From positions 1 through 49,371 of IMG/VR virus record IMGVR_UViG_3300031784_000051: a stretch of 49,371 nucleotides of DNA; one strand, given 5' to 3'. A program made the position numbers and the translations under genes. Under the pieces are notes generated by a model, which made no database searches, was not told the origin of the DNA, and saw nothing but the letters and a program-made list of their open reading frames with translations. Shown piece after piece: positions 3 through 19,315 of the stretch; the stretch's first letter is position 1; each line of letters opens with the position of its first letter. This stretch comes from a virus.

Positions 3-3000
3 TTATTAGGAAATACAACTGGGGCAAGTAACAGTGCATTTGGTAGAGGTTCACTACAAGCAAATACTATTGGTCAAAGAAACAGTGCATTTGGTACATA
101 CAGTATGTTTGCTAATACAATTGGTAACTATAATAGTGCATTTGGTTTCCACGCTTTAAGATATAACACAACAGGTGCAAGTAACAGTGCATTTGGTTAT
201 ATGAGTTTGCGATTCAATACAACTGGAGTAAATAACGTTGCTGTTGGTCTTCAAGCGTTATATGTTAATACTGGTGGTTATAACAATGTAGCAATTGGAA
301 ATGCTGCACTTGCGGCTAATACAGTTGGTATAAATAACGTAGCTGTTGGACATAATTCTCTTATAACTAATGTTGCTGGATATTCTAATACAGCTGTTGG
401 TTTTCAAGCTTTAGAAAATAATACCACTAATTTCAATAGTGCATTTGGATATAGAGCTTTAAGAGCTAATACAACAGGTATCGGTAATACAGCCGTTGGT
501 TATCATTCTCTATTAACTAATACTATTGGTATTCAAAATAGTTCATTTGGTTTTAGATCGTTAGCTTCAAATACTACTGGAGGAAATAATAGTTCATTTG
601 GTATGTATTCTATGTTGAATAATACTATTGGAGCTAATAATTCTGCATTTGGTTTAAGTACATTACAAAATAATACAACTGGTAATAGTAACTCCGCTTT
701 TGGTAAAGACGCATTAAAATTAAATACAACTGGTTCTAATAATTCAGCTTTTGGTTTTTATGCTTTGTTTGCAAATACAATCGGCAATAATAATACAGCA
801 ATGGGATTGGATGCTTTGCGAGGTAATACTACTGGTAATAATAATAGCGCGTTTGGTATACAAGCGTTAAGATATAACACTATTGGTGAAGCTAATTCCG
901 CTGTAGGCTATCAATCACTTTTCTATAATAGCATTGGAGTAAATAATAATGCTATAGGTTACAGAGCGTTATATAATAATACTACAGGCTCTAACAACAA
1001 TGCATTTGGTAGCAGCGCTTTAAGAGAAAATACAACTGGCATTGAAAACTCTGCATTTGGCACATATGCTTTAAGAAAAAATACAATTGGACAAAATAAC
1101 ATAGCGATAGGTAGCAGCGCATTACAGGAAAATTTAATTGGTAGCAATAACACTGCTGTAGGCTTTCAAACTCTAGTAAATAATACAACAAATAATAATG
1201 CTGCATTTGGCTATAGAGCGTTAAGATTAAATACTACAGGTACAGGTAATACAGCTGTAGGAAATGGTTCTTTACAAGTAAACACAATTGGTAATTACAA
1301 TAGCGCATTTGGTGAAACTGCATTAAGATACAATACTACTGGTACAAAAAATACAGCAGTAGGTTGTAATTCTTTATTTAATAATACAATTGGTGCTAAC
1401 AATGTTTCTGTTGGTTTCCAGTCAATGTTCTATAATACAACTGGAGGAAATAATAGCACCTTTGGTTATAGAGCATTATTTAGTAACACAATCGGAGCTA
1501 ATAATAGTGCATTTGGTCATTATTCTTTAAGAAATAATACAACTGGTTCTCAAAACAGTGCATTTGGTAAGAGCGCATTAGGAAGTAATACAATTGGAGC
1601 AACCAACTGTGCGTTTGGTAATTACGCTTTGTTATTAAATTCAACAGGCGGCGCAAATGTTGCAATGGGATATAGCGCTTTGTATAATAATACAACGGGT
1701 TATAATAATACAGCTATTGGTTATACCGCTTTGTATGCAAATACAACTGGTATAAATAATACTGCTTTGGGTTTATCAGCTTTATCAAATAATACAAGCG
1801 GTACTAATAACGTTGGACTTGGCGTTCAAGCATTATTAAATAATACATTTGGTTCAAATAATATTGCAATCGGTAGAGACGCACTTGTTTATAATACAAC
1901 AGGCAATAATAACACCGCTGTAGGATTTAATAGTTTAGCATTAAATACAATCGGCAGCAATAATAGTGCTTTTGGTAAATACGCATTGTATGCAAATACA
2001 ACTGGTATTAATAATACAGCTGTTGGTGTTAATGCATTAAATGCAAATACAATTGGAACTAGTAATACAGCAGTTGGTTATGTATCTTTACAAAATAATA
2101 CAACAGGTACTGGTAATAGCGCCTTTGGTTACTACGCTTTAAAGAGTAACACTATTGGAACTAATAATAGCGCATTTGGTCGTCAAGCTTTATTTAGTAA
2201 TACGACCGGCATAAATAATAATGCGTTTGGCCTAAATTCTTTAGGTTCAAATACAAGTGGAACTAATAATAATGCTTTTGGTAGATACGCTTTAAGAAAT
2301 AATACTATTGGTGGAAAAAATAGTGCATTTGGTCATAGATGTTTAGAAAATAACACTACAAATAGTAATAGTGCTTTTGGTTATAGAGCGTTATTTACTA
2401 ATACTGTTGGTACATACAATAGTGCTTTTGGTTATCAATCTCTATCAAGTAATACTACTGGAAGTAATAATAGTGCTTTTGGATATAAAGCGTTAAATGC
2501 TAATACAATTGGTACACAAAATGTTGCTGTTGGTATGCAATCTTTGCTCTTTAATACGACAGGTAGTAATAATGTAGGAATTGGATATAGAGCATTATAT
2601 AGTAATACAATTGGTACAGCTAATACAGCCGTTGGAACTGAAGTTTTATTAGCTAATACTACAGGTGTTTCTAATAGTGCATTTGGTTACAACGCAATGG
2701 GTGGAAATACAATTGGCTCTAAAAATAGCGCATTTGGTAGAATGTCTTTATTATATAATGTTTCTGGAAATAATAATAGTGGATTTGGATATAGATCGTT
2801 ATTTAAGAATACTATTGGTGGTAATAACAGTGCTTTTGGTTATAGTGCTTTAAGATACAATACCACAAATAATAATAGCGCTTTTGGTTATAAGGCGTTA
2901 TACAGTAATACAACAGGTCAATACAATGTTGCTGTAGGCAGAAGCGCTTTACAAAATAATACATTTGGTAGATATAATAACGCTTTTGGTGGTAATGCTC

Positions 3001-4215
3001 TAGCAAGCAGTACAACTGGTTATGATAACTGTGCATTTGGTTATGTATCACTAAATTCTAATACAAGTGGTATCAGAAATGTAGCAATGGGTGCTGCCGC
3101 ACTTAGATACGGCACGGTAATATCAGCAAATACAGCAGTAGGATTTGCAGCATTAGCAAATAATACTACAAACAACAACAGTGCGTTTGGTTATAAAGCT
3201 TTAAATTATAATACAATTGGTACAAATAACGTTGCGGTTGGTTTGAACGCTTTATATGCAAATACAACTGGTTCTTCAAATGCTGCGGTTGGTGTAGCTG
3301 CTTTGCAAAATAATACTGTAGGAATGGAAAATAGTGCTTTTGGTACTGCGGCTTTGCTAAATAATACTACAGGAAGTTCTAATAGTGCATTTGGTTTTCA
3401 AGCTTTAGTTTATAATATCACAGGTCAAAATAATAGCTCATTTGGTTTGAGATCATTATTTAATAATACAAGCGGAAATAATAATTCTGCATTTGGTAAA
3501 TATTCATTGAGAAATAATACTATTGGTATTAATAATGCTGCTTTTGGTTATCAAGCATTACGAAATAATACAATAGCTAGTAATAACACTGCTGTAGGCA
3601 GAAGCGCTTTACAACTTAATACTACAGGTACAGGTAATAGTGCATTCGGCGCTTACGCATTGGTTACTAATACAACAGGTACTAATAACACTGCTATCGG
3701 ATTGAATTCAATGAGATTGAATACAATCGGAAATGATAATACCGCTGTTGGATTAGAAAGTTTATATAATAATACAACAGGAATACAAAATACTGCTGTT
3801 GGTAGAAGCGCTTTAGTAAGTAATACAGTAGGTATAAGTAATAGCGCATTTGGTTATAGAGCGTTGAGTGAAAATACGCTTGGTAATTATAATACTGCTG
3901 TAGGAAGAACTGCTTTATATCTTAATACGATAGGTTCAAATAATACCGCAGTTGGATTTGCAGCATTGTATACAAATACAACTGGTAATAGCAATAGCGC
4001 TTTTGGTTATCAATCATTACCTGTAAATACAATTGGTGCAAATAATACAGCAGTAGGAACATACTCATTAAGATATAATACTACAGGATCAAAAAATTCA
4101 GCATTCGGTAGAGAAGCTTTATTTAGCAATACTATTGGTGTTGATAATAGTTCATTTGGTGCGTATTCTTTAAGAAGTTCAACAACTAGTATTGAAAATA
4201 CAGCGGTTGGTCAAT
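3..4215 (+). repeat. Array of about 83 repeats of 51 bp (17 codons) in fibre gene
   Basis: The unit encodes roughly NSAFGxxALxxNTTGxN. Copies are diverged at the DNA level (synonymous and non-synonymous), so this is not a fresh amplification. NTTG and NTIG versions often alternate, giving a weak two-unit (34-residue) pattern. A few copies (NTTNNN, NTTNSN, NTTNFN) lack one residue. The array continues beyond the left edge of the window. The count was made by eye. Confidence 0.9.
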
Positions 4216-4991
4216 CTTCAGGATACGACATCACTACTGGCAGAACAAATACACTACTTGGATTTAATACTGGTCGTGGTATTACCACTGGCAACTACAA
4301 TACAATCCTAGGTGCAAATGTCACGGGATTAAGCACAACGCTTGCAAATAACATTATAATTGCTGACGGCCAAGGTAATAGAAGAATAAATGTTGATAGT
4401 AGTGGTAATGTTGGTATAGCAACTACAAGTCCTTCTAATAAAACAACAATAGAATCAGATGCAACAGGCGCATCATTTGCAGATAATGGTGTTGGACAAC
4501 TTGTTATTCGTGGAGCAACAAATACAGCTAAACGCCTAGGCTTAGGTATTGATACTACAAATAATATTGGCGTAATTCAAGCGCAACTATATGGTACTGG
4601 TCAGTATCCATTAGTTTTGAATCCAGCAGGAGGTAACGTTGGTATTGGAACAACTGGTCCAAGTACCGCACTACAAGTTGTCGGCACAATTACTTGTACA
4701 ACATTAGTTGAAACATCAAGTGTCGCAACAAAAACAAATGTCAAAAAACTAAATAGTCAAACCGCCAAACTATCCAAGCTTGTACCTGTATCTTTTAATT
4801 ATAAAAAAGACAACAAACGCAGTCTAGGATTGATTGCGGAAGAAGTCGCCCAAGTTTACCCAGAATTAGTTGAGTATGAAAATGGTCGTCCTTTAGGTGT
4901 AAACTATTCGAAGCTTACTGCTGTATTAATTAGTACAGTAAATGAGCTAGCCGCCGAAGTCGCAGAACTAAAAAAACAACTAAATAAGTAA
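3..4991 (+). CDS. Giant repeat tail fibre with C-terminal S74 chaperone (5' end cut by window)
   Basis: Partial gene: the frame is open from base 3 and the gene starts upstream of the window. About 83 consecutive 17-residue repeats of the form N-S-A-F-G-x-x-A-L-x-x-N-T-T/I-G-x-N fill most of it; they resemble the head (Hep/Hag) repeats of YadA-type trimeric adhesins, which fold as a left-handed beta-roll. After the repeats come degenerate copies, then two VGIxTTxPxxK fibre modules (near 4410 and 4640). The last 90 or so residues match the peptidase S74 intramolecular chaperone: the SSVATKTNV cleavage/catalytic region, LGLIAEEVAQVYPELV, and a C-terminal coiled-coil helix ending ELKKQLNK. By family knowledge this domain trimerises the fibre and then cuts itself off. 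The product is expected to be a very long trimeric, virion-surface fibre that binds the host. It ends 22 bp before the next fibre gene. Confidence 0.9.
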   Translation, partial: LLGNTTGASNSAFGRGSLQANTIGQRNSAFGTYSMFANTIGNYNSAFGFHALRYNTTGASNSAFGYMSLRFNTTGVNNVAVGLQALYVNTGGYNNVAIGNAALAANTVGINNVAVGHNSLITNVAGYSNTAVGFQALENNTTNFNSAFGYRALRANTTGIGNTAVGYHSLLTNTIGIQNSSFGFRSLASNTTGGNNSSFGMYSMLNNTIGANNSAFGLSTLQNNTTGNSNSAFGKDALKLNTTGSNNSAFGFYALFANTIGNNNTAMGLDALRGNTTGNNNSAFGIQALRYNTIGEANSAVGYQSLFYNSIGVNNNAIGYRALYNNTTGSNNNAFGSSALRENTTGIENSAFGTYALRKNTIGQNNIAIGSSALQENLIGSNNTAVGFQTLVNNTTNNNAAFGYRALRLNTTGTGNTAVGNGSLQVNTIGNYNSAFGETALRYNTTGTKNTAVGCNSLFNNTIGANNVSVGFQSMFYNTTGGNNSTFGYRALFSNTIGANNSAFGHYSLRNNTTGSQNSAFGKSALGSNTIGATNCAFGNYALLLNSTGGANVAMGYSALYNNTTGYNNTAIGYTALYANTTGINNTALGLSALSNNTSGTNNVGLGVQALLNNTFGSNNIAIGRDALVYNTTGNNNTAVGFNSLALNTIGSNNSAFGKYALYANTTGINNTAVGVNALNANTIGTSNTAVGYVSLQNNTTGTGNSAFGYYALKSNTIGTNNSAFGRQALFSNTTGINNNAFGLNSLGSNTSGTNNNAFGRYALRNNTIGGKNSAFGHRCLENNTTNSNSAFGYRALFTNTVGTYNSAFGYQSLSSNTTGSNNSAFGYKALNANTIGTQNVAVGMQSLLFNTTGSNNVGIGYRALYSNTIGTANTAVGTEVLLANTTGVSNSAFGYNAMGGNTIGSKNSAFGRMSLLYNVSGNNNSGFGYRSLFKNTIGGNNSAFGYSALRYNTTNNNSAFGYKALYSNTTGQYNVAVGRSALQNNTFGRYNNAFGGNALASSTTGYDNCAFGYVSLNSNTSGIRNVAMGAAALRYGTVISANTAVGFAALANNTTNNNSAFGYKALNYNTIGTNNVAVGLNALYANTTGSSNAAVGVAALQNNTVGMENSAFGTAALLNNTTGSSNSAFGFQALVYNITGQNNSSFGLRSLFNNTSGNNNSAFGKYSLRNNTIGINNAAFGYQALRNNTIASNNTAVGRSALQLNTTGTGNSAFGAYALVTNTTGTNNTAIGLNSMRLNTIGNDNTAVGLESLYNNTTGIQNTAVGRSALVSNTVGISNSAFGYRALSENTLGNYNTAVGRTALYLNTIGSNNTAVGFAALYTNTTGNSNSAFGYQSLPVNTIGANNTAVGTYSLRYNTTGSKNSAFGREALFSNTIGVDNSSFGAYSLRSSTTSIENTAVGQSSGYDITTGRTNTLLGFNTGRGITTGNYNTILGANVTGLSTTLANNIIIADGQGNRRINVDSSGNVGIATTSPSNKTTIESDATGASFADNGVGQLVIRGATNTAKRLGLGIDTTNNIGVIQAQLYGTGQYPLVLNPAGGNVGIGTTGPSTALQVVGTITCTTLVETSSVATKTNVKKLNSQTAKLSKLVPVSFNYKKDNKRSLGLIAEEVAQVYPELVEYENGRPLGVNYSKLTAVLISTVNELAAEVAELKKQLNK

Positions 4992-5013: not shown

Positions 5014-8000
5014 ATGGCAATTCTTAATCATGGTTCAACAATAAGAACAGCGGATGGTGGACAATCAACAACAACCATAGTAACCGCCACTAACATTGGC
5101 AGTTATGCTGTAGCAAGTAGTGCTACTTATTATATTGGTACGACACAAAATGTTTTTAACAGAGCGAGCGGCGCACAAACACTAACTGGCGTTAGTATTG
5201 ATGGTAATGCGGCTAATATAACTGCGTATACCATTAATCAAAACGTAGGAACTAGTAATACACCATCATTTGCAGGTATAGTTTCTTCTGGTATTACTAA
5301 TTATGCATTTTTACAAGTAACAGATACAAATAATTTTTGGATAACTCCTGGCAATAATAACTGGGGTTTATATTTTGAAACAAGTGCTGGTGGACTTTTG
5401 GGTGGATCAGGAGATTCGAATCGTTTGGGATTTGTTGGTGCTGGTGCTGCTCGTTTTTATGTTGATTTAAATAATGGTAACGGATGGTTCGGAGGATCTT
5501 TGACTGCAAATACAGATTCTCGCGCACCAATATTTTACGATAGTGGTAATACAGCTTATTATTTAGATCCTGCAAATACTGGAACATCTTTATTAGTTGC
5601 GGGCAGTGTAGGTATAAATACAACAAGCCCAGCCTTTAAGTTAGATATAAATGGAACAGTCGGAGTCAGAGACACAATGTCATTTGGGCCTTCTGTAGGG
5701 TTGATCTCTTGGGGATCAATGGGAGGTGGAACAGGCTTTGGTATTAGATCGGAAAGTGGAAGAGCTTTAAGTTTAGGGGCAAATGGTAATTGGGATTACG
5801 TAGTAATAAATACGTCAGGTAATGTTGGTATAGGTACAACAACTGCATTTTCAAAAACTACAATATCTAAAGCTGGAGTAAGCCTTCCTACAACAGCAGA
5901 CAGCACAAATAATGCACATTTAACTTTAGCGGGATCAAATTCTTTAGTAAGATTACAATTTGGAACACAGAATGTTGCTCCTTATGGTGGATGGATTCAA
6001 GCGTCGTATGATAATACAGCGGGAGATAACGGAGCAGAGCCTATCTTACTTAATCCTTTAGGAGGCAATGTTGGTATAGGTACAACAAGTCCTGGTTATA
6101 AATTAGACATAACTGGAGATGCAAGAATTGCATCAGCAGCAGGTGCTGGAGCGTTGTATTTTGGAACACTTGATCCTTCAAATGTTTATTTAAAAGTTGA
6201 TAATAATTATGATTTAACTTTAGCTCAAAATGCTTCATCAGGTAATGGTTTGTATCTAGCTGGTGCTGGAAATGTTTATGTTAGTATTGATTCAAATAAT
6301 AATTCTACAATCGATGCATTTATTGTACAAAATAATGCAATCAAGGCTGGTACAGAATTATTTAGAGTACAAGAAAATGGAGTTGTTACTGCATCTACTG
6401 ATTTTCGCGCACCGATATTTTATGATAGCGGTAACACTGCTTATTATTTAGATCCAGCAAATACAGGTACTTCTTTATTGGTCGCTGGTAATGTAGGTAT
6501 AGGTACAACAAGTCCTACTGTAAAATTAGATATTGCCAGTACACAAGCCAATGGTATTGTAATGCGTTATGATACTGGTACAGCTTATCAAGCTTGGATA
6601 AGACCATATTGGAATAGTGGTACTGATACCAGAATTGATTTTGCTATTAATAGAACTGCTAACGTAACCCCCGAGGTTATTATGTCTGTTGGTTATGGTA
6701 GTAACGTTGGTATAGGCACAACAGGACCTAGTTTTAAATTAGATGTAAATGGTACAGTTAGAATCGCTAATACTCTTCGTATTGATGGTTTTGATACAAG
6801 TAGCGCTCAAAGAGCAATTGGTTTTGGAGGAAATACTCTTGGAACAAATGGAGTAATATATTCAAATGGAAGTTATATATCAATAAGTGCTGCAACTAAC
6901 CAACCATTATATTTAAATAGTGATACAAATGGTAATATTTTAATAAGTGGTACTAGTAGTGTCGGTATAGGTACAGCAAGTCCATCACAAAAATTACATG
7001 TTGTTGGAACTGGATTTGCCACAAGTGATTTTCGTGCGCCTATATTTTATGATAGTAATGATACAGCTTATTATGTTGATCCCGCTAGTAATTCTCGATT
7101 ATTAAATCTTGGTTTAGGAAACGTAACTCCAGATTTAAGACTAAGCGTAAGCGGTGATGCTCAATTAAGTGGAATTCTTTATTTGGGCGGAACGGCTGGA
7201 TCATATAATAGTTGGGGATCTAGAACTTATACAACTTCAGGAGTTTTGTATAATAATTCAAGCAGCGTAGAGTTTAATAATTATGGTTATGGTTCAACAT
7301 GGACATTTACTCTTGGTGGTGGAAATGCCACATCGTCTGGTTCATTTCGTGCGCCGATATTTTACGATAATGATAATACTGCGTATTATGCAAATCCAAG
7401 TGGCGCATCAATTTTTAATGGATTAAAATTAGTCAGTTCTGGTAACGAAGTTAGTGGTTCAGACTATAGTTTATGGATACAAGGAGGCAATGAGGACTGG
7501 GGTATTGGTATCGATAAATCTGCCAATAATTATGGCATAACTTATAATCTAGCATCAAGTCATACTTATGCAATTCAAGGAAGAAAAAATGGTACTGAGT
7601 ATTTTAGACTTGGTACGGACATGTTATCTCATGATACTAGATTGCAAGCGCCAATATTCTATGACAGTAATGATACAACTTATTATATTGATGCTGCAAG
7701 TACATCTCAGTTAAATCAAGTAGCATCTTATTATTTGAGAAATCTTGCTGGTGTATCAACTGATCATCAATTTGGTTTATATTTTAATAATTCAATAGAT
7801 ACTGCATACGCTATTTATAGAGAAGGTGGAGCTTGGACAAATCCATATCCAGATTTAAGAATTGCATTCCATACAGGCATAAAATTGGGCGCAAATGCTG
7901 GTTACAATGGTATAAGATTTTATAATGATTATGATATGACTACTCAAGTCATGTCAGTAAATAATAGTGGTGACGGACTGGGAACTAATAATGTTTATGT

Positions 8001-11000
8001 AAATAACAGTTTGCAAGCAGGCAGCAGCTTAAGGTCTCCAATTTATTATGATTCTGATAATACAGCATATTATATTAATGCAGCAAGTACATCTAGTTTA
8101 AATGCTTTAAATCTTGCTGATTATGTTGATGTTGGCACATATATTTATCTAAGAAATAATCTTAGAATGTTGAATAGTGGTGCTAACGGTTGGTTAGAAA
8201 CAATTGTTAGAAATTCAGGAAATCCTTATTTTCAAAATAGTATTGATGGAGGAACTTTCTTAGCTTCTGATGTTAGTGAAAATAATAATTGGTTGTTTCA
8301 AGAAGCAGCAAGAGGTTGGGGTCTTTTCTATTTTAATAAAGGAACACAATCTGGACAAACTTTTGGTAATTATACAACAATTGGTGCAGAAACATTCATT
8401 GTAGGTCAAGGAAATGGCACAACAATGCCTAGTACTTGGACAGGTTATAACGCTTCAAGCAAAGTTGCAATAATGTTATCAAATTACACCGGATATATTT
8501 GGGCGAATGATACAATATTTTCTGCTACAGGATTAAGAGCGCCAATATTTTATGACAGTAATGATACAACATATTACATTGATCCTGCATCTACATCAAG
8601 AATAGTTGCTTTATGGGTTCGTGGATCAAGCGAAACTGTTGGTAATATTTATGTTGGTGGTACTGCTGCTGGTGATAGATTGAATATAAATTTCGATCAG
8701 ATTTGGACTCCAAATGGTAACTTGCATTTGCAATATAGTGGAGGAGGAAATATTGACATGAATTTTGGAGGAGGTCATGCATTTAGCAGAACTTCTTTAC
8801 GCGCACCAATTTTTTATGATTATAATAACACAGCTTATTATACTGATCCAGCAAGTACATCAGTATTAAATAGATTAACAATCGATGGCGGCAATTATGC
8901 ATTCGATTATTTTCAATCGTTGAGTGACTTTACTAGTGGTACTTTAGTCACGACAGATATTCCAGCTACTGCTGCCGAAGGTGAATCTTTTGTGATGAAC
9001 GTTGTAGGTAAGAGTTATAGTGGAAGTACATCACCATTTAATTTTAGTGTTCAAGGTTATTTATATAGCAGTACCATTATAAATTTCTCAGGTTTGAGTT
9101 TGGATTCGACTGCGTTAAGTACAGTTAAAATATTTGAAAATGGCGGCGTACTTTGTTTCTGGTGGCCAACGATTACTTATTGGAATGCTTTTGAAGTAAG
9201 CGTAAGAGCTTATAATAACGCAAAGAATAATTATAATAGAGTCACAAATATTACTAACAGTGTTGAACCAACAGGAACTAAAAAAGTAACAGTTACTTTG
9301 CAAAGATTCATGAGAGCAGATGTTTCTGCTACTAATAGCGTTGATCTAAGAGCGCCAATTTTCTATGATTCTAATGATACGACTTATTATACAGATCCAT
9401 CAAGTTTATCTAATATTTTAGAGTTAAAAACAAATAAAAATTGGTACGACAGTAGCGCAAGTGCTTGGGGTGGTGGTATCAATATGGGAGGAAATAATCC
9501 AAGCATTGGATTCCAAAGCACGGCTTCAACTTGGTGGTATATGTTGCATCACTCAAGCAGTAATATAAATTTTTATAGAAGAAGTACGAGTGGTTCTTGG
9601 AATCACGATGGTATCTGGGATAGTTCTGGAAATCTTATTTGGCAAGGATCATCAGTTCGCGCACCAATTTTCTACGATCAAAATAATACAGCTTATTATA
9701 TAGATGCTGCAAGCACATCTAATTTCAATGATTTGTATTTAGATGGAGATTTAAGAATGAACGGCTCAGATAGTTATATCTGGATGCCTAATAATAATAC
9801 TCTTTCAACAGGGTTTTTTGATCCAGTTACGAGTTTAGTTCCACTTCAATTACATGGACCAAGTGATGGTATTTACATTGGTAATAGTGCATGGATTAGT
9901 TATAATACTGCAAATAATAATAGTTATAATGAAAATATAAGATTGTTTGCTGCGTCGAATGGGGTTTCTACAATTGCTTTTAGAGCGTCTGGAGCAAGTG
10001 GTGAACCTACTAATAGTATATTAGGATTTTCTGATAGATTTGAAATAAGACAGGCAGGGCAATGGCAATTAAGAAGTTATGCTAACTATATCGAAGCCTA
10101 TGGTAGTTCACGCGCACCAATATTTTATGACAGCAATAACACTGCTTATTATACTGACCCAGCCAGTACTTCAGTATTAAATAGAATTGATTTACCATCA
10201 GGTTCAGCAACTATAAATACAACAACACCGGGACAAACAGTTTATCAATTAAACTTTACTGGTCAATCGACTAATGATAATGCTCAAGCGATTACTTGGG
10301 GTTGGTCAACATCAGGAGCGCAAGCTGGTATTTATGTTCAATCATCAGGAGGTTATGGCACAAAAATGTACATAGCCACCACAGATTCTTTTGCAACAGG
10401 ATCAAAAACCGCTTTAACAATTGATCATACTGGTATTGTAACTACTAATCGTAATTATCTACAAGCTAGTGGATCTCTTCGTGCGCCACTGTTCTACGAT
10501 TCTGATAATACTGCTTATTATTTAGATCCTGTAGGAACAAGCCGTTTAACAAATTTAAATGTTAATGAATATTATGCAATTGGTTGGTTTAGAAATAGTA
10601 CTAATGGTAATGGTTTATATAATGAAGCAACTACTCAACATTTTTATTCTGATGATGTTAGTTATTGGAACGTCGCAAGCTCTTCGGGCGCACAAGGCAT
10701 AAGATTAAGAACTGGCGGTCATGCTGGTACTATTCGTGGATATTTTTATGCAGATACTGCTAATGACGTTGGTTTATTAAATAATGCTGGAAATTGGAGA
10801 ATAAGAATAGTTGGTGGTGATTATACATTATTTGATGGTTCATCAATAAGAGCGCAAACATTTTTAGATAGCAATAATACTGCTTTTTATTGCGATCCTG
10901 CCAGCACAAGTAATTTAAATGTTTTAAATATTATAGACGGTACTGTTGAATTATATGAATCTCAAACTGTTGATATGTCTAATACAACGACATATAGCAC

Positions 11001-12582
11001 AAGCAATTATTATCCAGTAACAATAAGTGTCCCAACCGAAGGTTGCATAATACAAATTCAAAATAATCTAAACTCAAATGTTCCTTCTTGGGCTACTCAT
11101 GGTAGCGGATTTACTTTGAATCTAAAATGGAGAACAAATGGTTCTGGTTGGGGAACAACAGAAGTTAGAAGATATATAGAACAATATCATGAAAGATTTG
11201 CTAATCAAACTATTTGCGGCGGTATCACACAGATGGGCAATAGTAGTACAGAAGTTGTTTGGTTAAGAGGTGGCGGTCAATATCTTTTTAAATTTAGTAG
11301 AAATCTTAGTGCAACTGCTCAATCAGCAACTTACACAGTAAATAGTCAAAGCGTAACGCCAACTTCCACTGCTCAAAATACAGTTTGGAATTCATATGGC
11401 GGTTATGAATTAAAATATAATAATGCAACAGTGTCTACAGATAATATGTATACGCCTGTATTATATGATTATAATAATAGTGCTTATTACGTTGATCCAT
11501 CAAGCACAAGTAATTTGGTTGGTTTGACTGTTGCAAATACAATTACTGGAAGCATCACAGGCAATGCTGGTGGAAGTTCCGCTTCTTGTACTGGTAATGC
11601 CGCTACAGCAACTACTTTACAAACAGCGAGAAATATTAATGGCACAAGCTTCAACGGCAGCGCCGCAATCACAACTGCTACTTGGGGAACAGCAAGAACA
11701 ATAACCATTGGTTCAACAGGTAAATCAGTAGATGGTAGCGCAAACGTTTCTTGGAGTCTTGCTGAGTTAGGTGCTGCCGCAACTAACCAAACAATGTTTA
11801 TTGGTACAACATCAGTTGCAATTAATAGATCATCCGCAAGTCAAACATTAACAGGAATAAGCATTGATGGTAACGCTGCTACTGTAACAAACGGTGTTTA
11901 TACTAATGCTAGTAATACATTAACTGGAGTAAATTATTTTAGATCTGATAAAGGCTCTATATCTACAGTTGGAACTAATAATACTTACGCTTTGCAAGCA
12001 TTTTCAAATGACGCTGGTGCAGCAGGTATGTCATTCCATCGTGGAGGATATTATGCTGTTAATATGGGATTAGATCCAGATAATATAATGCGTATTGGTG
12101 GCTGGAGTGCATCAGCTAATCGTTGGGAATTAGATATGTCAGGAAACAATTGGGTCGCTTCTTCTTTTAGAGCGCCAATTTTCTACGATTCTAATGATAC
12201 GAATTATTATGTTGATGCTGCTTCAACTAGTAATTTATTATTAGTAAAAACAAGAAATACTTTTGGAGAAAGAGTCGCTGTTACTGCTGCCGCAACAACA
12301 ACAATTAATACTCAGTATAATTTGACAGAATTAACAATGTCCGCTTCAATAACAACATTAACATTATCAAATATTCAATCAAGTGGTACTGTTCATATGT
12401 GGACAATTGTTACAGTAGGAAATGGTACAGCTTATTCAATAGCATGGCCAGCCGCCGTTAAATGGCCTAGTGGTGCTGGTCCAAATGTAACAGGAACAAA
12501 TACTAAACGCGATATTTATCAATTTGTTACTTATGATGGTGGCACAACTATTTATGCAATTATCGTAGCTCAAAATCTATAA
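5014..12582 (+). CDS. 2522-residue tail fibre with RAPIFYDS repeats
   Basis: Virion fibre-like protein. It contains 15 copies of a motif close to RAPIFYDSNNTAYYxDPASTS (first at residue ~170, last at ~2387), separated by variable beta-rich inserts of about 80-260 residues, plus six VGIGTTSPxxKLDI modules in the N-terminal third. These modules occur in fibres of many marine and freshwater phages. A module near residues 40-71 (YIGTT..NRASGAQTLTG) recurs at ~2262-2293. The C-terminal 100 residues carry a fibre-tip-like pattern with SIAWPAAVKWPSG and a DGGTTIYA ending; there is no S74 domain, unlike the upstream gene. The start ATG at 5014 follows an A/T leader without Shine-Dalgarno. Most likely a receptor-binding or side fibre; the variable inserts could each carry binding sites. 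Confidence 0.85.
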   Translation: MAILNHGSTIRTADGGQSTTTIVTATNIGSYAVASSATYYIGTTQNVFNRASGAQTLTGVSIDGNAANITAYTINQNVGTSNTPSFAGIVSSGITNYAFLQVTDTNNFWITPGNNNWGLYFETSAGGLLGGSGDSNRLGFVGAGAARFYVDLNNGNGWFGGSLTANTDSRAPIFYDSGNTAYYLDPANTGTSLLVAGSVGINTTSPAFKLDINGTVGVRDTMSFGPSVGLISWGSMGGGTGFGIRSESGRALSLGANGNWDYVVINTSGNVGIGTTTAFSKTTISKAGVSLPTTADSTNNAHLTLAGSNSLVRLQFGTQNVAPYGGWIQASYDNTAGDNGAEPILLNPLGGNVGIGTTSPGYKLDITGDARIASAAGAGALYFGTLDPSNVYLKVDNNYDLTLAQNASSGNGLYLAGAGNVYVSIDSNNNSTIDAFIVQNNAIKAGTELFRVQENGVVTASTDFRAPIFYDSGNTAYYLDPANTGTSLLVAGNVGIGTTSPTVKLDIASTQANGIVMRYDTGTAYQAWIRPYWNSGTDTRIDFAINRTANVTPEVIMSVGYGSNVGIGTTGPSFKLDVNGTVRIANTLRIDGFDTSSAQRAIGFGGNTLGTNGVIYSNGSYISISAATNQPLYLNSDTNGNILISGTSSVGIGTASPSQKLHVVGTGFATSDFRAPIFYDSNDTAYYVDPASNSRLLNLGLGNVTPDLRLSVSGDAQLSGILYLGGTAGSYNSWGSRTYTTSGVLYNNSSSVEFNNYGYGSTWTFTLGGGNATSSGSFRAPIFYDNDNTAYYANPSGASIFNGLKLVSSGNEVSGSDYSLWIQGGNEDWGIGIDKSANNYGITYNLASSHTYAIQGRKNGTEYFRLGTDMLSHDTRLQAPIFYDSNDTTYYIDAASTSQLNQVASYYLRNLAGVSTDHQFGLYFNNSIDTAYAIYREGGAWTNPYPDLRIAFHTGIKLGANAGYNGIRFYNDYDMTTQVMSVNNSGDGLGTNNVYVNNSLQAGSSLRSPIYYDSDNTAYYINAASTSSLNALNLADYVDVGTYIYLRNNLRMLNSGANGWLETIVRNSGNPYFQNSIDGGTFLASDVSENNNWLFQEAARGWGLFYFNKGTQSGQTFGNYTTIGAETFIVGQGNGTTMPSTWTGYNASSKVAIMLSNYTGYIWANDTIFSATGLRAPIFYDSNDTTYYIDPASTSRIVALWVRGSSETVGNIYVGGTAAGDRLNINFDQIWTPNGNLHLQYSGGGNIDMNFGGGHAFSRTSLRAPIFYDYNNTAYYTDPASTSVLNRLTIDGGNYAFDYFQSLSDFTSGTLVTTDIPATAAEGESFVMNVVGKSYSGSTSPFNFSVQGYLYSSTIINFSGLSLDSTALSTVKIFENGGVLCFWWPTITYWNAFEVSVRAYNNAKNNYNRVTNITNSVEPTGTKKVTVTLQRFMRADVSATNSVDLRAPIFYDSNDTTYYTDPSSLSNILELKTNKNWYDSSASAWGGGINMGGNNPSIGFQSTASTWWYMLHHSSSNINFYRRSTSGSWNHDGIWDSSGNLIWQGSSVRAPIFYDQNNTAYYIDAASTSNFNDLYLDGDLRMNGSDSYIWMPNNNTLSTGFFDPVTSLVPLQLHGPSDGIYIGNSAWISYNTANNNSYNENIRLFAASNGVSTIAFRASGASGEPTNSILGFSDRFEIRQAGQWQLRSYANYIEAYGSSRAPIFYDSNNTAYYTDPASTSVLNRIDLPSGSATINTTTPGQTVYQLNFTGQSTNDNAQAITWGWSTSGAQAGIYVQSSGGYGTKMYIATTDSFATGSKTALTIDHTGIVTTNRNYLQASGSLRAPLFYDSDNTAYYLDPVGTSRLTNLNVNEYYAIGWFRNSTNGNGLYNEATTQHFYSDDVSYWNVASSSGAQGIRLRTGGHAGTIRGYFYADTANDVGLLNNAGNWRIRIVGGDYTLFDGSSIRAQTFLDSNNTAFYCDPASTSNLNVLNIIDGTVELYESQTVDMSNTTTYSTSNYYPVTISVPTEGCIIQIQNNLNSNVPSWATHGSGFTLNLKWRTNGSGWGTTEVRRYIEQYHERFANQTICGGITQMGNSSTEVVWLRGGGQYLFKFSRNLSATAQSATYTVNSQSVTPTSTAQNTVWNSYGGYELKYNNATVSTDNMYTPVLYDYNNSAYYVDPSSTSNLVGLTVANTITGSITGNAGGSSASCTGNAATATTLQTARNINGTSFNGSAAITTATWGTARTITIGSTGKSVDGSANVSWSLAELGAAATNQTMFIGTTSVAINRSSASQTLTGISIDGNAATVTNGVYTNASNTLTGVNYFRSDKGSISTVGTNNTYALQAFSNDAGAAGMSFHRGGYYAVNMGLDPDNIMRIGGWSASANRWELDMSGNNWVASSFRAPIFYDSNDTNYYVDAASTSNLLLVKTRNTFGERVAVTAAATTTINTQYNLTELTMSASITTLTLSNIQSSGTVHMWTIVTVGNGTAYSIAWPAAVKWPSGAGPNVTGTNTKRDIYQFVTYDGGTTIYAIIVAQNL
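5518..12240 (+). repeat. 15 dispersed copies of RAPIFYDS-type fibre repeat
   Basis: Each copy encodes about 22 residues, consensus RAPIFYDSxNTAYYxDPASTS, diverged in DNA sequence. Two early copies (near 5518 and 6403) are almost identical over RAPIFYDSGNTAYYLDPAN and both are followed by a VGIxTTSP module, suggesting a more recent internal duplication. Copies 13 (RAQTFLDSNNTAFYCDP) and 14 (YTPVLYDYNNSAYYVDP) are the most diverged. Confidence 0.88.
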
Positions 12583-14155: not shown

Positions 14156-14692
14156 ATGGATAAAAAATACGTTTTAGTAGTAAATAATCATATAGTTTCT
14201 ACGCCAGCGCCGCTTCCCATAAGTTATAAAAACATATCTAATATTTTTGTATTGCCTGACGATAAATTGGCTGATTTGTCATGGTCTGGAAACGACGAAG
14301 GATTCTGGGTTGTAAACAGTGATCCGTTTCCAACAATTAATATTCATCAAAAAATAGAAACATCATGGACACTCAACATTCAAAATAAAACATGCCAAGA
14401 AAGTTATACTGTAGTTGACGTTACGCCATCAGAAGAAGAAATAAGAATCAATAGAATCAAATCTAGCATAAGAATGACTAGAGATCAGTATCTTCTTTTA
14501 ACTGATTTTACGCAATTAAGTGATGCGCCAATCTCTGATATTGCTAAAAATGATTTTAAAACTTTTAGACAACAGTTGAGAAGTATGCTTGACATACCTG
14601 ATGTCACTCAAGCAGTTTGGCCTACGATTCCAACTTCTGCTCCTAACATTTCTTTGCCGCCATTTCCTCCAATGCCAAGCTTTAATGGTTAA
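14156..14692 (+). CDS. Tail fibre assembly / APC-type protein
   Basis: 178 residues, 1 bp after the previous stop. The C-terminal part has the pattern of phage tail assembly chaperone-like proteins found next to fibre genes: a helix RIKSSIRMTRDQYLLLTDFT, a second helix with FRQQLRSMLDIPD, then VWPTIP and a proline-rich tail. Family members pair the conserved L..TDxT...YRxxLRdi sequence with a final WP.P motif. The N-terminal 80 residues look like a small beta domain (VLVVNNHIVSTPAPLP.., WVVNSDPFP). Its likely job is chaperoning or attaching the upstream fibres; it could alternatively be a minor virion component. No terminator is evident before the next gene 20 bp away. Confidence 0.65.
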   Translation: MDKKYVLVVNNHIVSTPAPLPISYKNISNIFVLPDDKLADLSWSGNDEGFWVVNSDPFPTINIHQKIETSWTLNIQNKTCQESYTVVDVTPSEEEIRINRIKSSIRMTRDQYLLLTDFTQLSDAPISDIAKNDFKTFRQQLRSMLDIPDVTQAVWPTIPTSAPNISLPPFPPMPSFNG

Positions 14693-14712: not shown

Positions 14713-15342
14713 ATGGGTTATTCTTATGACTATTATGTACAAACTTGTTTAATGTTGCGGCAGAATGGATTTTATCCAAAAAGAATATTAGATATTGGCG
14801 CAAGCGTCTGTCAAACGGCAGACGTTATGCATGATGTTTGGCGTGTTGCTGATATTGTTCTTTTTGAAGGCAACAAAGAATGCGAGCCTTTGTACAAAAC
14901 AAAAGATTATGCTTATCATATTAAATTACTTGGTAAAGAAAACGGCATCGCTAAATTCTATAAAACAAAATGGAGTCCCATTTGTTCAGGCAATTCTATA
15001 TACAAAGAAAACTCGTCAACTTACAATGAAGAAAACTTGATAGTCGAAGAGTTGCCGATTTATAAACTAGATGATTGCGTTAATGGCATTTTTGATCTAA
15101 TAAAAATTGATACTCAAGGTAGTGAATTAGATATCATCAACGGTGGATTGCGAACTTTCTTAAATACCAAAGTAGTTATCGCAGAAGTATCTTTAACTAA
15201 TTACAATGAAGGCGGCTGCACGAAGCAACAGATTGTTGATAAAATGATTAGTCTAAAATTTGATTTAGTATCTATAATAGAATCAGTAGTAAATGAAAAT
15301 AAAGAACTGATCGCTGAAAGTTTATTATTTATTAAACCTTAA
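14713..15342 (+). CDS. FkbM-family SAM-dependent methyltransferase
   Basis: 209 residues. Class I methyltransferase fold: motif I ILDIGAS at residues 25-31, the acidic residue of motif II in LFEGN (E52), and the FkbM signature FDLIKIDTQGSELDIINGG in the second half. FkbM enzymes O-methylate sugars or small polyketide substrates with S-adenosylmethionine. The last 40 residues finish the sheet (LIAESLLFIKP). The gene lies at the end of the + strand fibre block and meets the - strand glycosyltransferase gene tail to tail with a 4-bp overlap of the stop regions. With two glycosyltransferases and a sulfotransferase alongside, methylation of a glycan is the likely role. Confidence 0.88.
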   Translation: MGYSYDYYVQTCLMLRQNGFYPKRILDIGASVCQTADVMHDVWRVADIVLFEGNKECEPLYKTKDYAYHIKLLGKENGIAKFYKTKWSPICSGNSIYKENSSTYNEENLIVEELPIYKLDDCVNGIFDLIKIDTQGSELDIINGGLRTFLNTKVVIAEVSLTNYNEGGCTKQQIVDKMISLKFDLVSIIESVVNENKELIAESLLFIKP

Positions 15343-16304
15343 ATATCTAAAATCTTCTTCCACCATTTGATAACCATTTGCGGACGAAAGTTTCTTGGGT
15401 TTTGTTGAGTTGGAGTGTAGTTCTTAAAATAGTTTATATAATTATGCATGTCAGAAGTCAAACTATTATTATTTATTAATTCTGGCAACGATCCTAGACC
15501 GTTGAGTCCATAAACATATGGTGTTGTTTGCAAAATATCAGCAAGAACAACGCTAATCCCAAAAGTTTCGGGCATATTATTTACATAAAACATGCCTTTG
15601 CATTTTGCCATAAGCTCAACGACTTCTTTAAAATTCAACGTGCCAATATAATTGACATTATAATTTACATCGGTAATATCATTTTTTGGATTATCATATC
15701 CCGGCAAACATACATTTAAGACATCAGTGCCAGATAATATTTTTTCGTCTTTTAAGTATTTCCACATCTGCAAAGTATATGGATATCCTTTCATCAAGCT
15801 ACTCGCATATATATAATTTTTCTTATTTTGTGGAATTGGATAGTCGTATACCCAATCAGGAATCATGAAATAAATAATATGCTTGTTCCAATGAGCAGGA
15901 AACAAACCGTCTTGAAATTTACTGAGAGTAATTAAAGATAACTTCTTTTCCTCAAATAGTTTGTAGAATTTTAGATTGTGAACGCCATTAAGATCGGTTG
16001 CCCACATGAAAGCTTTTTTATGGGCGATCTTTGGGATGTCGCTGTATCTATGAATTATTAAGTTCTTGCATTTTACCTTATATTTATTTACTAAAACATT
16101 TGGTAAATATAATACATTATTTATATACGTTTCTTTTTCGCAATTGTTGAAGCAGATAACTTTATATCCTTCTTTCGCCAACTCTTCAAGAAGAAGAATA
16201 GCTTGAAATTCGCTGCCGCCCATGCCTTTTTCATGCATGGTGTTGCCAGTATAAGACATTCCGATACTGTCAAATAAAATTACATCTGCGAAAATTTCGT
16301 TCAT
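15339..16304 (-). CDS. GT-B fold glycosyltransferase
   Basis: 321 residues. The N-terminal Rossmann half has the GMGGSEFQAILLLEELAKE loop-helix typical of GT4/GT1-like enzymes, where GGSE/GGAE binds the nucleotide sugar. The C-terminal half has PETFGISVVLADIL, corresponding to the E-x(7)-E region of retaining GT-B enzymes, followed by a GLGSLPEL stretch. At about 320 residues it is slightly short for the family. It starts by an ATGA overlap with the stop of the upstream glycosyltransferase, so the two are translationally coupled. Donor and acceptor are unknown. No membrane segment, so probably cytosolic, acting on a soluble acceptor such as a virion protein or activated glycan. Confidence 0.8.
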   Translation of the reverse strand: MNEIFADVILFDSIGMSYTGNTMHEKGMGGSEFQAILLLEELAKEGYKVICFNNCEKETYINNVLYLPNVLVNKYKVKCKNLIIHRYSDIPKIAHKKAFMWATDLNGVHNLKFYKLFEEKKLSLITLSKFQDGLFPAHWNKHIIYFMIPDWVYDYPIPQNKKNYIYASSLMKGYPYTLQMWKYLKDEKILSGTDVLNVCLPGYDNPKNDITDVNYNVNYIGTLNFKEVVELMAKCKGMFYVNNMPETFGISVVLADILQTTPYVYGLNGLGSLPELINNNSLTSDMHNYINYFKNYTPTQQNPRNFRPQMVIKWWKKILDI

Positions 16305-17065
16305 ACAAGAACTTTAAAATCGTCATCTGGATCACTCTTTGCAAAATATCTAGAAATGTCTGTTACTGGTTGTGGATTGAAAGTTTCTTGTTTCTTGAAA
16401 GAATTAATCCATTTACCTACGTCACCGACAAATGTCTTCGTACCCGTGTGCGAGCAGGTAATCTTTGTGTCAAGGTAAACGCTGTTTCCAAGATTGCGCC
16501 ACTTTTTGCACATATAAATGTCTTCGCTGATAAGATCGCCGTCTTCGCATACGACTTCGAATACCATGCGTGTGTCGCCCTTTTCAGATGTGTAAGGTTT
16601 TGAGATTTCCCAAAGAGCTTCCATAGCCTTGCGGGAGATTTTCATGAAGCCACAGCCAAGTCCAGCAACTTCCAAAAGACCATCTTTATCGATGCTTAGA
16701 TTTAGTTTGCTGTTATCTTTGTCGAGAGCTTTTACTACATAAAGTTCTTCGTTGTCGCTCTTCTTTCTATAGCTGCCGCCAATCAAATCTTTGTCGCTAT
16801 TTACTAGTTTATAAAAGTCTAATGGATTCCAACCGACATCACCATCAATAAAAAACAATACATCAATATCGTTGCTGTAAGCTAGTTTAAATAAATCATT
16901 TCGGGCGCGTTGAATAAGAGAGTCGTAGCAGATAAATAATGGAAAAACTTCTACGTTATTCTTTTCTGCTAAAGATAGAGTGTTTAGAAGTGAGTCGATG
17001 TAATAAACATCAAGTTTGCCGTCGTATGATGGAGTTGCGATTAAAACTTTCTTTTTATCAGCCAT
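16301..17065 (-). CDS. GT-A fold glycosyltransferase
   Basis: 254 residues. Begins with a beta strand KVLIATPSYDGK and a QRARNDLFKLA helix, then FFIDGDVGWNPLDF, where the DGD acts as the metal-binding D-x-D of GT-A enzymes. A second conserved block is GLGCGFMKISRKAMEAL, followed by EDIYMCKKWRNLG and a C-terminal CSHTGTKTF that may supply the last metal/nucleotide ligand His. This layout matches viral glycosyltransferases of the Anp1/GT2-like type. The ATG lies directly behind the U-tract of a terminator-like hairpin, and the hairpin's GAGG is the only Shine-Dalgarno candidate (see that feature). Coupled downstream by ATGA to the GT-B gene. Confidence 0.82.
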   Translation of the reverse strand: MADKKKVLIATPSYDGKLDVYYIDSLLNTLSLAEKNNVEVFPLFICYDSLIQRARNDLFKLAYSNDIDVLFFIDGDVGWNPLDFYKLVNSDKDLIGGSYRKKSDNEELYVVKALDKDNSKLNLSIDKDGLLEVAGLGCGFMKISRKAMEALWEISKPYTSEKGDTRMVFEVVCEDGDLISEDIYMCKKWRNLGNSVYLDTKITCSHTGTKTFVGDVGKWINSFKKQETFNPQPVTDISRYFAKSDPDDDFKVLV

Positions 17066-17098
17066 AAAAAAACCTCAAGAACGATATGTCCTTGAGGT
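17066..17098 (-). terminator. Terminator-like hairpin abutting the GT-A start codon
   Basis: On the - strand RNA, ACCUCAAG pairs with CUUGAGGU and the stem can extend by G-U, A-U and C-G to an AUAUC loop. A run of U follows and leads straight into the AUG of the GT-A gene at 17065. It is better paired on the - strand than on the + strand, so it probably ends transcripts of the small upstream gene (17134-17415). The 3' arm contains GAGG seven bases before the start codon, so the same hairpin could also hide the ribosome site. Attenuator or RBS-masking function is inference. Confidence 0.7.
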
Positions 17099-17133
17099 AT
17101 TTTATGTTTTTTATTTGTAGTTTTCTACTTGTA

Positions 17134-17415
17134 TTATCGGGTTAAAGCAGGTGGATATTCACCAGTAACAAGAGTAACTACAGCAGAAGCTAGTTGCGCG
17201 TCAGTCCATTGACCAGCCTGATCGTAAGTGTCGCCAGACCAAACGGTATACCAATTGTGAGCGTAAGGATTGGTAGATATTTTTACCAAGCTCTTTACGG
17301 TCTTGCCAACTGGATCATCAGTTGTTTGGAGGATTTCGATTTGGCTGCTATTGGCAGCTTGTTGGATTTCTACTGCATTTGGTAGATTAATAATTGGGAA
17401 TACTGGATCGCTCAT
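17134..17415 (-). CDS. Small protein of unknown function in the glycan cassette
   Basis: 93 residues, on the - strand between the sulfotransferase (41 bp upstream) and the GT-A gene. I do not recognise a family. The N-terminal third is helix-prone (LPNAVEIQQAANSSQIEIL); then comes a basic stretch (GKTVKSLVKI), an aromatic segment NWYTVWSGDTYDQAGQW and a helix TDAQLASAVVTLVTGEY. No Cys, signal peptide or membrane segment. It is followed by a hairpin that looks like its terminator, so it may be expressed more strongly than the genes behind it. Start in context CAAAATATGAG without Shine-Dalgarno. Confidence 0.7.
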   Translation of the reverse strand: MSDPVFPIINLPNAVEIQQAANSSQIEILQTTDDPVGKTVKSLVKISTNPYAHNWYTVWSGDTYDQAGQWTDAQLASAVVTLVTGEYPPALTR

Positions 17416-17456
17416 ATTTTGTATATATTTTTACACTATTTTTATATCTATAGAAA

Positions 17457-18281
17457 TTAATAATCGTAGCTAAAAGCTTTGTAGAACCAAGAAAATCTAT
17501 TGTAAATGTTATCGCAGTTCTGCTTACCTAACACATCGATATAATCATTTGGAACGGGCTTGATAACTTTTTGGATTGTATGATCGCCAAAAGGAATGTG
17601 CATACGATCATCTTCAAAAGTCTTTTGTTCGACATTGTTAAAGTCATGTTGATAAAATGGCAATTCAAGATATTCATAAACTCGCTGCATTTCACGTTGA
17701 GGATTGGCGGCAAAGTTTTCAAACTTAATAAATAAACACTTTTTACTTAACTTACGCATAATTGTGTCGTATAATACATCCATGCTTACTGCAAGTGGCG
17801 GCGCTTGCAATAAAAAGTAATCGATTCTCTTGTCTACAGTTGTGTTACGAAGTTCGTTCCAATTCTGAAGGCCAGCGTCTATATTTTGGTGTTGTCGCCA
17901 CTTCTTTTCCATGCTTGCAACTACCGCTCGCAAGTCTCGCACCATAACAATCACCTTTGGATCTGGATAATACCAGTTTAAAAAGTCATAAGTCACGCTC
18001 CAGCCTCTACTCTTGTCAATAACATATTTCTTGTCAGTGATGGCGTTGAAGTATGCGAACATACCTTCTTTGCAAAGAGCTTTAAACGCTGGTTCAACAA
18101 CATTGATATCTTGAGCCTTAAATTCTATATTTGTAGAATATATATTTCTGGCATTAAGAAAGATTTCGATCAACCCACTTGTTGGTGTGGCGTAAAAATC
18201 AGGATTTTGGGCTAGTACGTTTTGTAATAATGTCGAACCTGCTCTCGGCAAAGAGCATTGAAAAAATATCTTTTCAACCAT
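17457..18281 (-). CDS. PAPS-dependent sulfotransferase
   Basis: 274 residues from the ATG at 18281, which opens with the first beta strand VEKIFFQCS. The next residues, LPRAGSTLLQNVL (11-23), are the 5'-phosphosulfate-binding loop of sulfotransferases, and VIVMVRDLRAVVASMEKKW is the 3'-phosphate-binding region with the usual Arg and Ser. Family enzymes move sulfate from PAPS to hydroxyl groups of sugars, Tyr residues or small molecules. A longer start at 18326 would overlap the divergent kinase gene by 35 bp and add residues before the first strand, so it is less likely. It heads the - strand cassette sulfotransferase, small protein, GT-A, GT-B. No membrane anchor, so cytosolic. Confidence 0.85.
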   Translation of the reverse strand: MVEKIFFQCSLPRAGSTLLQNVLAQNPDFYATPTSGLIEIFLNARNIYSTNIEFKAQDINVVEPAFKALCKEGMFAYFNAITDKKYVIDKSRGWSVTYDFLNWYYPDPKVIVMVRDLRAVVASMEKKWRQHQNIDAGLQNWNELRNTTVDKRIDYFLLQAPPLAVSMDVLYDTIMRKLSKKCLFIKFENFAANPQREMQRVYEYLELPFYQHDFNNVEQKTFEDDRMHIPFGDHTIQKVIKPVPNDYIDVLGKQNCDNIYNRFSWFYKAFSYDY

Positions 18282-18291
18282 AACATATATT

Positions 18292-18747
18292 ATGTCAGTT
18301 GGTTCGTTTTTAAAGGTGTTAATCATGGGTTTACCGGGATCTGGTAAAACTACATTAGCAGCAGATTTGTTTTATCTTTTAAGTAGTAATTATAAGTGCC
18401 ATTGGTTAAATGCAGACAAAGTTCGTGAACAATTCAATGACTGGGACTTCAGCGAAGCTGGTCGCGAACGCCAAGCCAAAAGAATGAAAGATTTGGCCGA
18501 TATGTATGGTCAATATAACGAAATAATTATTTGCGATTTCGTATGTCCGTTACAGAAAACTAGAGATCAGTTTAATCCTGATTATATAATTTTTATGAAT
18601 ACTATTGAAGAATCAAGATACGAAGATACGAACAAGGTATTCGAACCGCCGAAAAAGTTTGATGTCGAAGTCAAAAGCAAGAACAGCAACTATTATTCTA
18701 AAATGATCTACAACGAAATAGTTCATAAAATGAATAAAAAAGTGTAA
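18292..18747 (+). CDS. Adenylylsulfate (APS) kinase-like P-loop protein
   Basis: 151 residues. Walker A GLPGSGKTTLA follows the strand LKVLIM. Next comes WLNADKVREQFNDWDFSEAGRER, matching the APS kinase pattern (D-x-x-R-x-x-x-N then F-S-x-x-x-R, APS binding), and IICDFVCPLQKTRDQF, matching the kinase's fSPxxxxR loop. The C-terminal part has NTIEESRYEDTN followed by FEPPKKFDV, seen in phage versions. It is shorter than the usual ~200-residue CysC and lacks a clear KGLYxxA lid motif. The expected reaction is APS + ATP to PAPS, the donor needed by the sulfotransferase encoded divergently 10 bp away. An alternative is a related kinase acting on another nucleotide. The adjacent downstream structural gene starts 9 bp after it. 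Confidence 0.75.
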   Translation: MSVGSFLKVLIMGLPGSGKTTLAADLFYLLSSNYKCHWLNADKVREQFNDWDFSEAGRERQAKRMKDLADMYGQYNEIIICDFVCPLQKTRDQFNPDYIIFMNTIEESRYEDTNKVFEPPKKFDVEVKSKNSNYYSKMIYNEIVHKMNKKV

Positions 18748-19274: not shown

Positions 19275-19315
19275 AAAAAAGAACCCCAGTCTTTCGACTG
19301 GGGTTTTTTATTTTA
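19275..19315. terminator. Bidirectional intrinsic terminator
   Basis: A 10-bp perfect stem AACCCCAGTC / GACTGGGGTT with a TTTC loop, flanked by A6 on the left and T6 on the right, so it reads as a Rho-independent terminator on both strands. It lies between the convergent connector-like gene (ends 19269) and the tail tube gene (ends 19325), ending both transcripts. It is markedly GC-rich against its surroundings. Confidence 0.95.

Follow-up and report, generated by a model that had tools for sequence, protein, structure and literature searches.

The incomplete virus record IMGVR_UViG_3300031784_000051 of IMG/VR, from an uncultured aquatic phage, was analyzed over its 49,371 bases (the window), and the cassette at positions 14713–18747 is probably a phage-encoded sulfation module. 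In such a module an APS-kinase-like protein (KIN) would convert host-made adenosine 5'-phosphosulfate (APS) into 3'-phosphoadenosine 5'-phosphosulfate (PAPS), a sulfotransferase (SULT) would use PAPS to sulfate a sugar hydroxyl of a glycan built by two glycosyltransferase-like proteins, an FkbM-family protein would methylate this glycan, and a tail fibre would be the most likely acceptor. The first step is proposed from the fold, the residues and the repeated pairing of KIN-type proteins with sulfotransferases, and the second from the protein family of SULT. We regard PAPS formation and glycan sulfation as the most likely function because the pairing of SULT and kinase recurs independently in both classes of the kinase. 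The enzyme families are already known; the donor-making phage sulfation module was not found in the literature searched (phage APS kinase with sulfotransferase, sulfotransferase with tail fibre), in which subscription papers were thinly covered.

Kinase, sulfotransferase and accessory genes

The cassette runs in the order FkbM (+), GT-B-like glycosyltransferase (−), GT-A-like glycosyltransferase (−), a 93-aa open reading frame (ORF) (−), SULT (−) and KIN (+), and the five genes named in the original prediction, which was made from the bare sequence, are open frames as claimed (Table 1). The whole block is kept and syntenic in about 20 related IMG/VR contigs. This conservation, together with purifying selection as seen from the ratio of nonsynonymous to synonymous substitution rates (dN/dS), means that the ORFs are genuine genes and no chance frames. 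Their assignment to families is firm for FkbM, SULT and KIN and distant for both glycosyltransferases.

KIN (151 aa) matches the Pfam family APS_kinase (PF01583) with E 3e-13 and 50.3 bits against a cut-off of 21.1. It carries the Walker A P-loop GLPGSGKT, whose G18 and K19 are invariant across 21 relatives, and is under purifying selection (dN/dS 0.04–0.12). In a Foldseek search with its AlphaFold model (predicted local distance difference test, pLDDT, 93; predicted template modelling score, pTM, 0.88) all 50 PDB matches listed are APS kinases, the closest of these being 1m7g with bound ADP and APS (E 9e-9, TM score 0.81), and among viral proteins it is matched best by one of Ralstonia phage phiRSL1 that is annotated as an APS kinase. 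D42, R45, F53 and R58 of KIN are the equivalents of D63, R66, F75 and R80 of APS kinase, which we take from the Penicillium enzyme to be APS-binding or catalytic, and C85 is found at the position of S107.

The longest ORF of SULT (17457–18326, −) matches Sulfotransfer_3 (PF13469) with E 1e-18 and 68.7 bits against a cut-off of 27. As its homologues start at MVEK, the true start of SULT is probably at 18281. Both predicted PAPS-binding loops are present, with the 5' loop PRAGST being conserved (P27, R28 and G30 invariant among relatives) and R130 and S138 of the 3' loop being invariant as well, and purifying selection on the gene is very strong (dN/dS 0.02–0.04). SULT and KIN are divergent, as had been proposed, and with the start of SULT at 18281 their start codons stand back to back only 10 bp apart, so that both promoters must be located inside the opposite gene. 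Seven sequences of the window's lineage show good conservation of this stretch, and its sequence CATAACATATATTATG (region 18279–18294) is nearly palindromic.

The FkbM gene converges on the GT-B-like gene (tail to tail) and was correctly recognized as a methyltransferase gene (TIGR01444, 43.2 bits against a cut-off of 37.7; PF05050, E 7e-10); its dN/dS of 0.10–0.24 is the loosest of the cassette. The two glycosyltransferases showed a distant likeness to known ones that is weaker than claimed, as both miss the Pfam cut-offs. For the GT-A-like protein the GT2 family is reached with E 0.06 only, phrog_12406 (glycosyltransferase) with E 1.5e-4 and phrog_1574 (unknown function) with E 1e-23; its DxD-like motif FFIDGDVGW contains an acidic motif that is invariant in the alignment (A5), and its dN/dS is about 0.04. 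The GT-B-like protein is similarly remote from GT1 and from the mannosyltransferase WbaZ-1 in the PDB (Table 1), and its gene overlaps the GT-A-like gene by 4 bp and is conserved in synteny. The 93-aa ORF has no family match in PHROG, Pfam or NCBIfam, and it is syntenic with the cassette in the window's lineage with a dN/dS of 0.03–0.10.

Pairing of sulfotransferase and kinase genes in other viruses

A search with a SULT profile, which took in a few members first met via kinase searches, fetched 80 viral loci, from which 60 non-redundant loci remained after dropping near-copies and the window's own lineage. Most of the fetched loci show, downstream of SULT and on its strand, an APS-kinase-like gene and a gene for an adenylyltransferase of about 130 aa (NT, described below). 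Of the 60 non-redundant loci, 38 have an APS-kinase-like gene no more than four ORFs away from SULT, 37 of the 38 placements being at +1 to +3, and NT is found near SULT in 35/60. As a control we used loci fetched by the GT-A-like protein and counted kinases within six ORFs. A kinase was present in 14 of the 22 loci with SULT nearby and in none of the 28 loci without it (Fisher P 3e-7), and comparing the loci without SULT with the SULT loci for kinase presence gave P 1e-9. The kinase therefore tracks SULT and not glycosyltransferases as such, and a general link of the kinase to glycosyltransferase cassettes was rejected.

In a kinase tree, reconstructed with a quick method from few columns, two fully supported classes are formed, DN with the canonical residues and NQ including KIN. 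Kinases of the DN class stand beside SULT in dozens of SULT-kinase-NT sets. The NQ class does so in the SULT-kinase-NT sets L292–L326 and as kinase-NT fusions adjoining SULT in L022, L040, L049 and L050, and the divergent pair of the window is a further arrangement. At least 17 changes of the state 'SULT nearby' are needed on this tree and, judged from these sequences, the pairing arose several times and in both classes. In locus L014 a SULT with 58% identity and reordered glycosyltransferases stand beside a kinase with 79%, which looks like a cassette exchange. The five genes had been expected to be grouped and not scattered in related genomes, and this is what the synteny in the related contigs and the pairs in unrelated phages showed.

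Sulfotransferase genes of marine phages have been reported before, are widespread in aquatic viromes and share the Pfam domain of SULT, and their function 'remains unclear' according to the accessible text of that report, in which, unlike in the window, no kinase or donor-making module is described (PMC10580990). The order SULT-kinase-NT would give phage sulfotransferases a specific role, namely sulfation with a phage-made donor.

Other genes recur around SULT as well. Its commonest neighbour, in 46 of the 60 non-redundant loci, encodes a family of about 290 aa (GGLGKxIxxTAV; for example L162:1502–2389) that has no Pfam or PDB match and an N-terminus resembling GT-B glycosyltransferases. A gene for a DUF2061 membrane protein (PF09834; for example L132:2342–2566) often follows the SULT-kinase-NT set and is located near SULT in 28/60, and our literature search gave no paper supporting DUF2061 as a known sulfur gene. 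Locus L089 (4198–7083) carries a tandem pair of sulfotransferases (84% and 58% to SULT of the window), each with its own GT-A-like gene, beside a fibre gene, and in L050 (4612–6453) the kinase-NT fusion is preceded by a protein in which a sulfotransferase domain is joined to a long C-terminal region.

Substrate and acceptor

Several observations weigh against a role of KIN in PAPS formation. It stays below the cut-off of the NCBIfam CysC equivalog TIGR00455 (43.8 against 138.7 bits) and is called APS-kinase-like for this reason. Compared with APS kinase (CysC or the APSK domain of PAPS synthetases, PF01583) the P-loop, the four residue equivalents and the overall fold are alike, whereas KIN differs in its length of 151 aa, in N40 and Q61 in place of D61 and N83, and in the short RYEDTNKVF that replaces the lid FTGID. 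The structure prediction suggested for checking the APS pocket thus gave a mixed answer, and a pocket that is altered yet present is plausible from the model. The main evidence against it is that fusions of an NQ-class kinase with NT are widespread among phages lacking a sulfotransferase, including the cultured Stenotrophomonas phage DLP_6 and Xanthomonas phage AhaSv, and among 22 contigs with such a fusion Sulfotransfer_1 occurs in two and PAPS reductase in none. A SULT with 95% identity is found without the kinase in four fragmentary contigs (L062–L064, L068), and cyanophages and single-cell marine viruses have SULT without kinase or NT. In two other SULT contigs a DN-class kinase is located far from SULT.

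It could be that kinases of the NQ class use some other nucleotide or small molecule as substrate, such as a cytidine diphosphate (CDP)-linked donor, and that SULT is adjacent by coincidence, which would fit the changed pocket, the truncated lid, the fusions without sulfotransferase in many phages and SAR11, and the fold of NT, which is that of NMN or phosphopantetheine adenylyltransferases and not of ATP sulfurylases. The CysC-like Cj1415 of Campylobacter, which phosphorylates a CDP-linked donor, may be a parallel. We consider such a function improbable, as three or more further arrangements have an NQ-class kinase next to SULT (L022/L040, L049/L050 and L292–L326), the DN class adjoins it in dozens of cases, the GT-A-like loci without SULT have no kinase at all, and the nearest folds among the matches listed are all APS kinases.

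A quite different acceptor would be tyrosine in the phage's own fibres, sulfated by SULT in the manner of the eukaryotic protein-tyrosine sulfotransferases. TPST1/2 are indeed the nearest solved relatives of SULT by sequence in the PDB, sharing with it, as do PF13469 and phrog_27463, the PAPS-binding loops and the fold family, and the fibres of the window contain 5–6% Tyr. However, the glutamate of the TPST motif GEETR, presumably catalytic, aligns with non-acidic residues of SULT (segment TPTSG), and unlike TPST1/2 SULT sits in a phage fibre region together with glycan genes. In many loci SULT is accompanied by glycosyltransferase or FkbM genes, in agreement with a glycan as the acceptor. TPST-type sulfation is thus disfavoured and we regard it as very unlikely.

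For a glycan the same chemistry might also act on the host surface (lipopolysaccharide or capsule), hiding receptors and blocking superinfection or the rebinding of progeny. Genes for sulfotransferases, FkbM proteins and glycosyltransferases are typical of surface-polysaccharide loci, and in a contig of Crocinitomicaceae the kinase and NT are found close to a gene for an export-type ATPase and two sulfotransferases. On the other hand, SULT is recurrently only a few genes away from fibre proteins in many unrelated phages (within four ORFs of fibre-like repetitive proteins in 38 of the 80 viral loci), a fibre-assembly gene adjoins the cassette of the window, and the window fragment shows no sign of lysogeny. 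We therefore rate the host surface as the second choice and a serious rival, and a virion fibre protein rich in Ser, Thr and Asn as the most likely acceptor, which is favoured by the adjoining fibre-assembly gene, the frequent proximity of SULT to fibre-like proteins and the composition of the fibres. Their richness in these residues had been noted from the sequence and amounts to 32–39%. Glycosyltransferases of mycobacteriophages glycosylate virions (Freeman et al. 2023, as cited in PMC12619734) and resemble the cassette in being phage glycosyltransferases near virion genes, whereas neither sulfation nor PAPS synthesis is mentioned in the accessible part of the citing paper. From the recurrent SULT-kinase-NT order, sulfated glycans may be present on the fibres of some phages.

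Origin of APS and genomic surroundings

NT belongs to an NMNAT-like family (GRWQPxHxGH ... ISATKIR) whose viral members nearly always stand next to APS-kinase-like proteins or are fused with them, with a kinase fused or near in 76 of 80 viral NT loci. The folds nearest to its structure model (pLDDT 92) are NMN and phosphopantetheine adenylyltransferases; a classical ATP sulfurylase was not supported by sequence or fold, no such enzyme being among the 50 matches listed. With the NT profile the window gave no match and 17 relatives gave no credible one, as two matches of 16.6 bits, candidates for a hidden NT, fall in fibre genes. Since NT is missing from the window's lineage, APS would have to be supplied by the host. 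The prediction that the phage makes its own PAPS is hence supported by the APS-kinase-like KIN and its recurrent pairing with SULT, but only from APS onwards, as no ATP-sulfurylase candidate is present in the window or its close relatives.

The nearest cellular copies of NT are almost all from SAR11. Among 40 NT-bearing genomes, mostly incomplete SAR11, CysD was found in none, an ATP sulfurylase in two and AprB in 28, and NT lies within four ORFs of the AprB and AprA genes in 15 of 80 loci. This suggests from gene context an APS-linked function, and because kinase-NT pairs occur in SAR11 genomes without known ATP sulfurylases, NT might be a minimal ATP sulfurylase. As a tentative idea, for which we see rather less than even chances, phages and SAR11 may share a minimal sulfate activation in which NT makes or consumes APS and its kinase partner makes PAPS, feeding SULT beside the fibres in many phages, with the window's cassette as a reduced version from which NT was lost. 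The kinases of many other phages and bacteria resemble bifunctional PAPS synthases (ATP sulfurylase and APS kinase) in having an adenylyltransferase of the HIGH superfamily as a fused partner or downstream neighbour; they differ from them as NT has only about 130 aa and is NMNAT-like and not Sat-like, and the window has no NT. If the idea of a minimal sulfate activation is true, NT would be a compact ATP sulfurylase of a new kind and, with the kinase, a new PAPS synthase. In SAR11 it would also be the partner that APS reductase has been missing and would bear on the handling of APS there, as the genomes tested have APS reductase and almost no recognized ATP sulfurylase.

Table 1: Positions of the cassette genes, candidate acceptors and NT examples (window positions unless a locus L is named).
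Feature	Position	Strand	Evidence
FkbM-family S-adenosylmethionine-dependent methyltransferase (predicted sugar O-methylation)	14713..15342	+	PF05050, TIGR01444
GT-B-like glycosyltransferase, weak assignment	15339..16304	-	PF00534 E 0.11; WbaZ-1 E 0.035
GT-A-like glycosyltransferase	16301..17065	-	phrog_1574, phrog_12406; DxD-like motif
Small conserved ORF, 93 aa	17134..17415	-	synteny, dN/dS
PAPS-dependent sulfotransferase SULT (predicted), 274 aa from MVEK	17457..18281	-	PF13469; PAPS loops
AT-rich 10-bp spacer between divergent SULT and KIN start codons	18282..18291	.	well conserved
APS-kinase-like P-loop kinase KIN, NQ class	18292..18747	+	PF01583; AlphaFold/Foldseek; residue map
Tail-fibre assembly chaperone adjoining the cassette	14156..14692	+	PF16778 E 7e-8; phrog_4912 E 4e-11
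Giant tail-fibre-like protein of 2522 aa with repeats, acceptor candidate or genomic context	5014..12582	+	32% Ser+Thr+Asn
Tail-fibre/spike protein with S74 endosialidase-chaperone domain, acceptor candidate or genomic context	105..4991	+	PF13884 E 1e-9; 39% Ser+Thr+Asn
NT, examples	L070:9501-9899; L073:10593-10975; L018:8413-8835; fused in L022, L034, L041		
NT just upstream of APS reductase genes, SAR11	L179:8001-11607; L180:7555-10516 (kinase also in L180)		CysD and ATP sulfurylase not found in these genomes

The location of the cassette between fibre and neck genes could be confirmed on the fibre side, with the S74 domain and the fibre-assembly gene, while the genes on the far side, claimed to be neck genes, have no PHROG or Pfam match. 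The gene of the giant fibre-like protein stands between those of the S74-chaperone protein and the fibre-assembly protein, and the protein is composed of repeated modules of the AYYxDPASTS type. The window also contains a lambda-like tail module with J and minor tail proteins. A Shine-Dalgarno-like site precedes only three of 27 window genes, which is near chance level, and the leaders are AT-rich as usual in Bacteroidota; both features suggest a Bacteroidota-like host. Between the ORFs 18757–19269 (+) and 19325–20662 (−) a strong terminator-like hairpin is found on both strands at 19278–19309.

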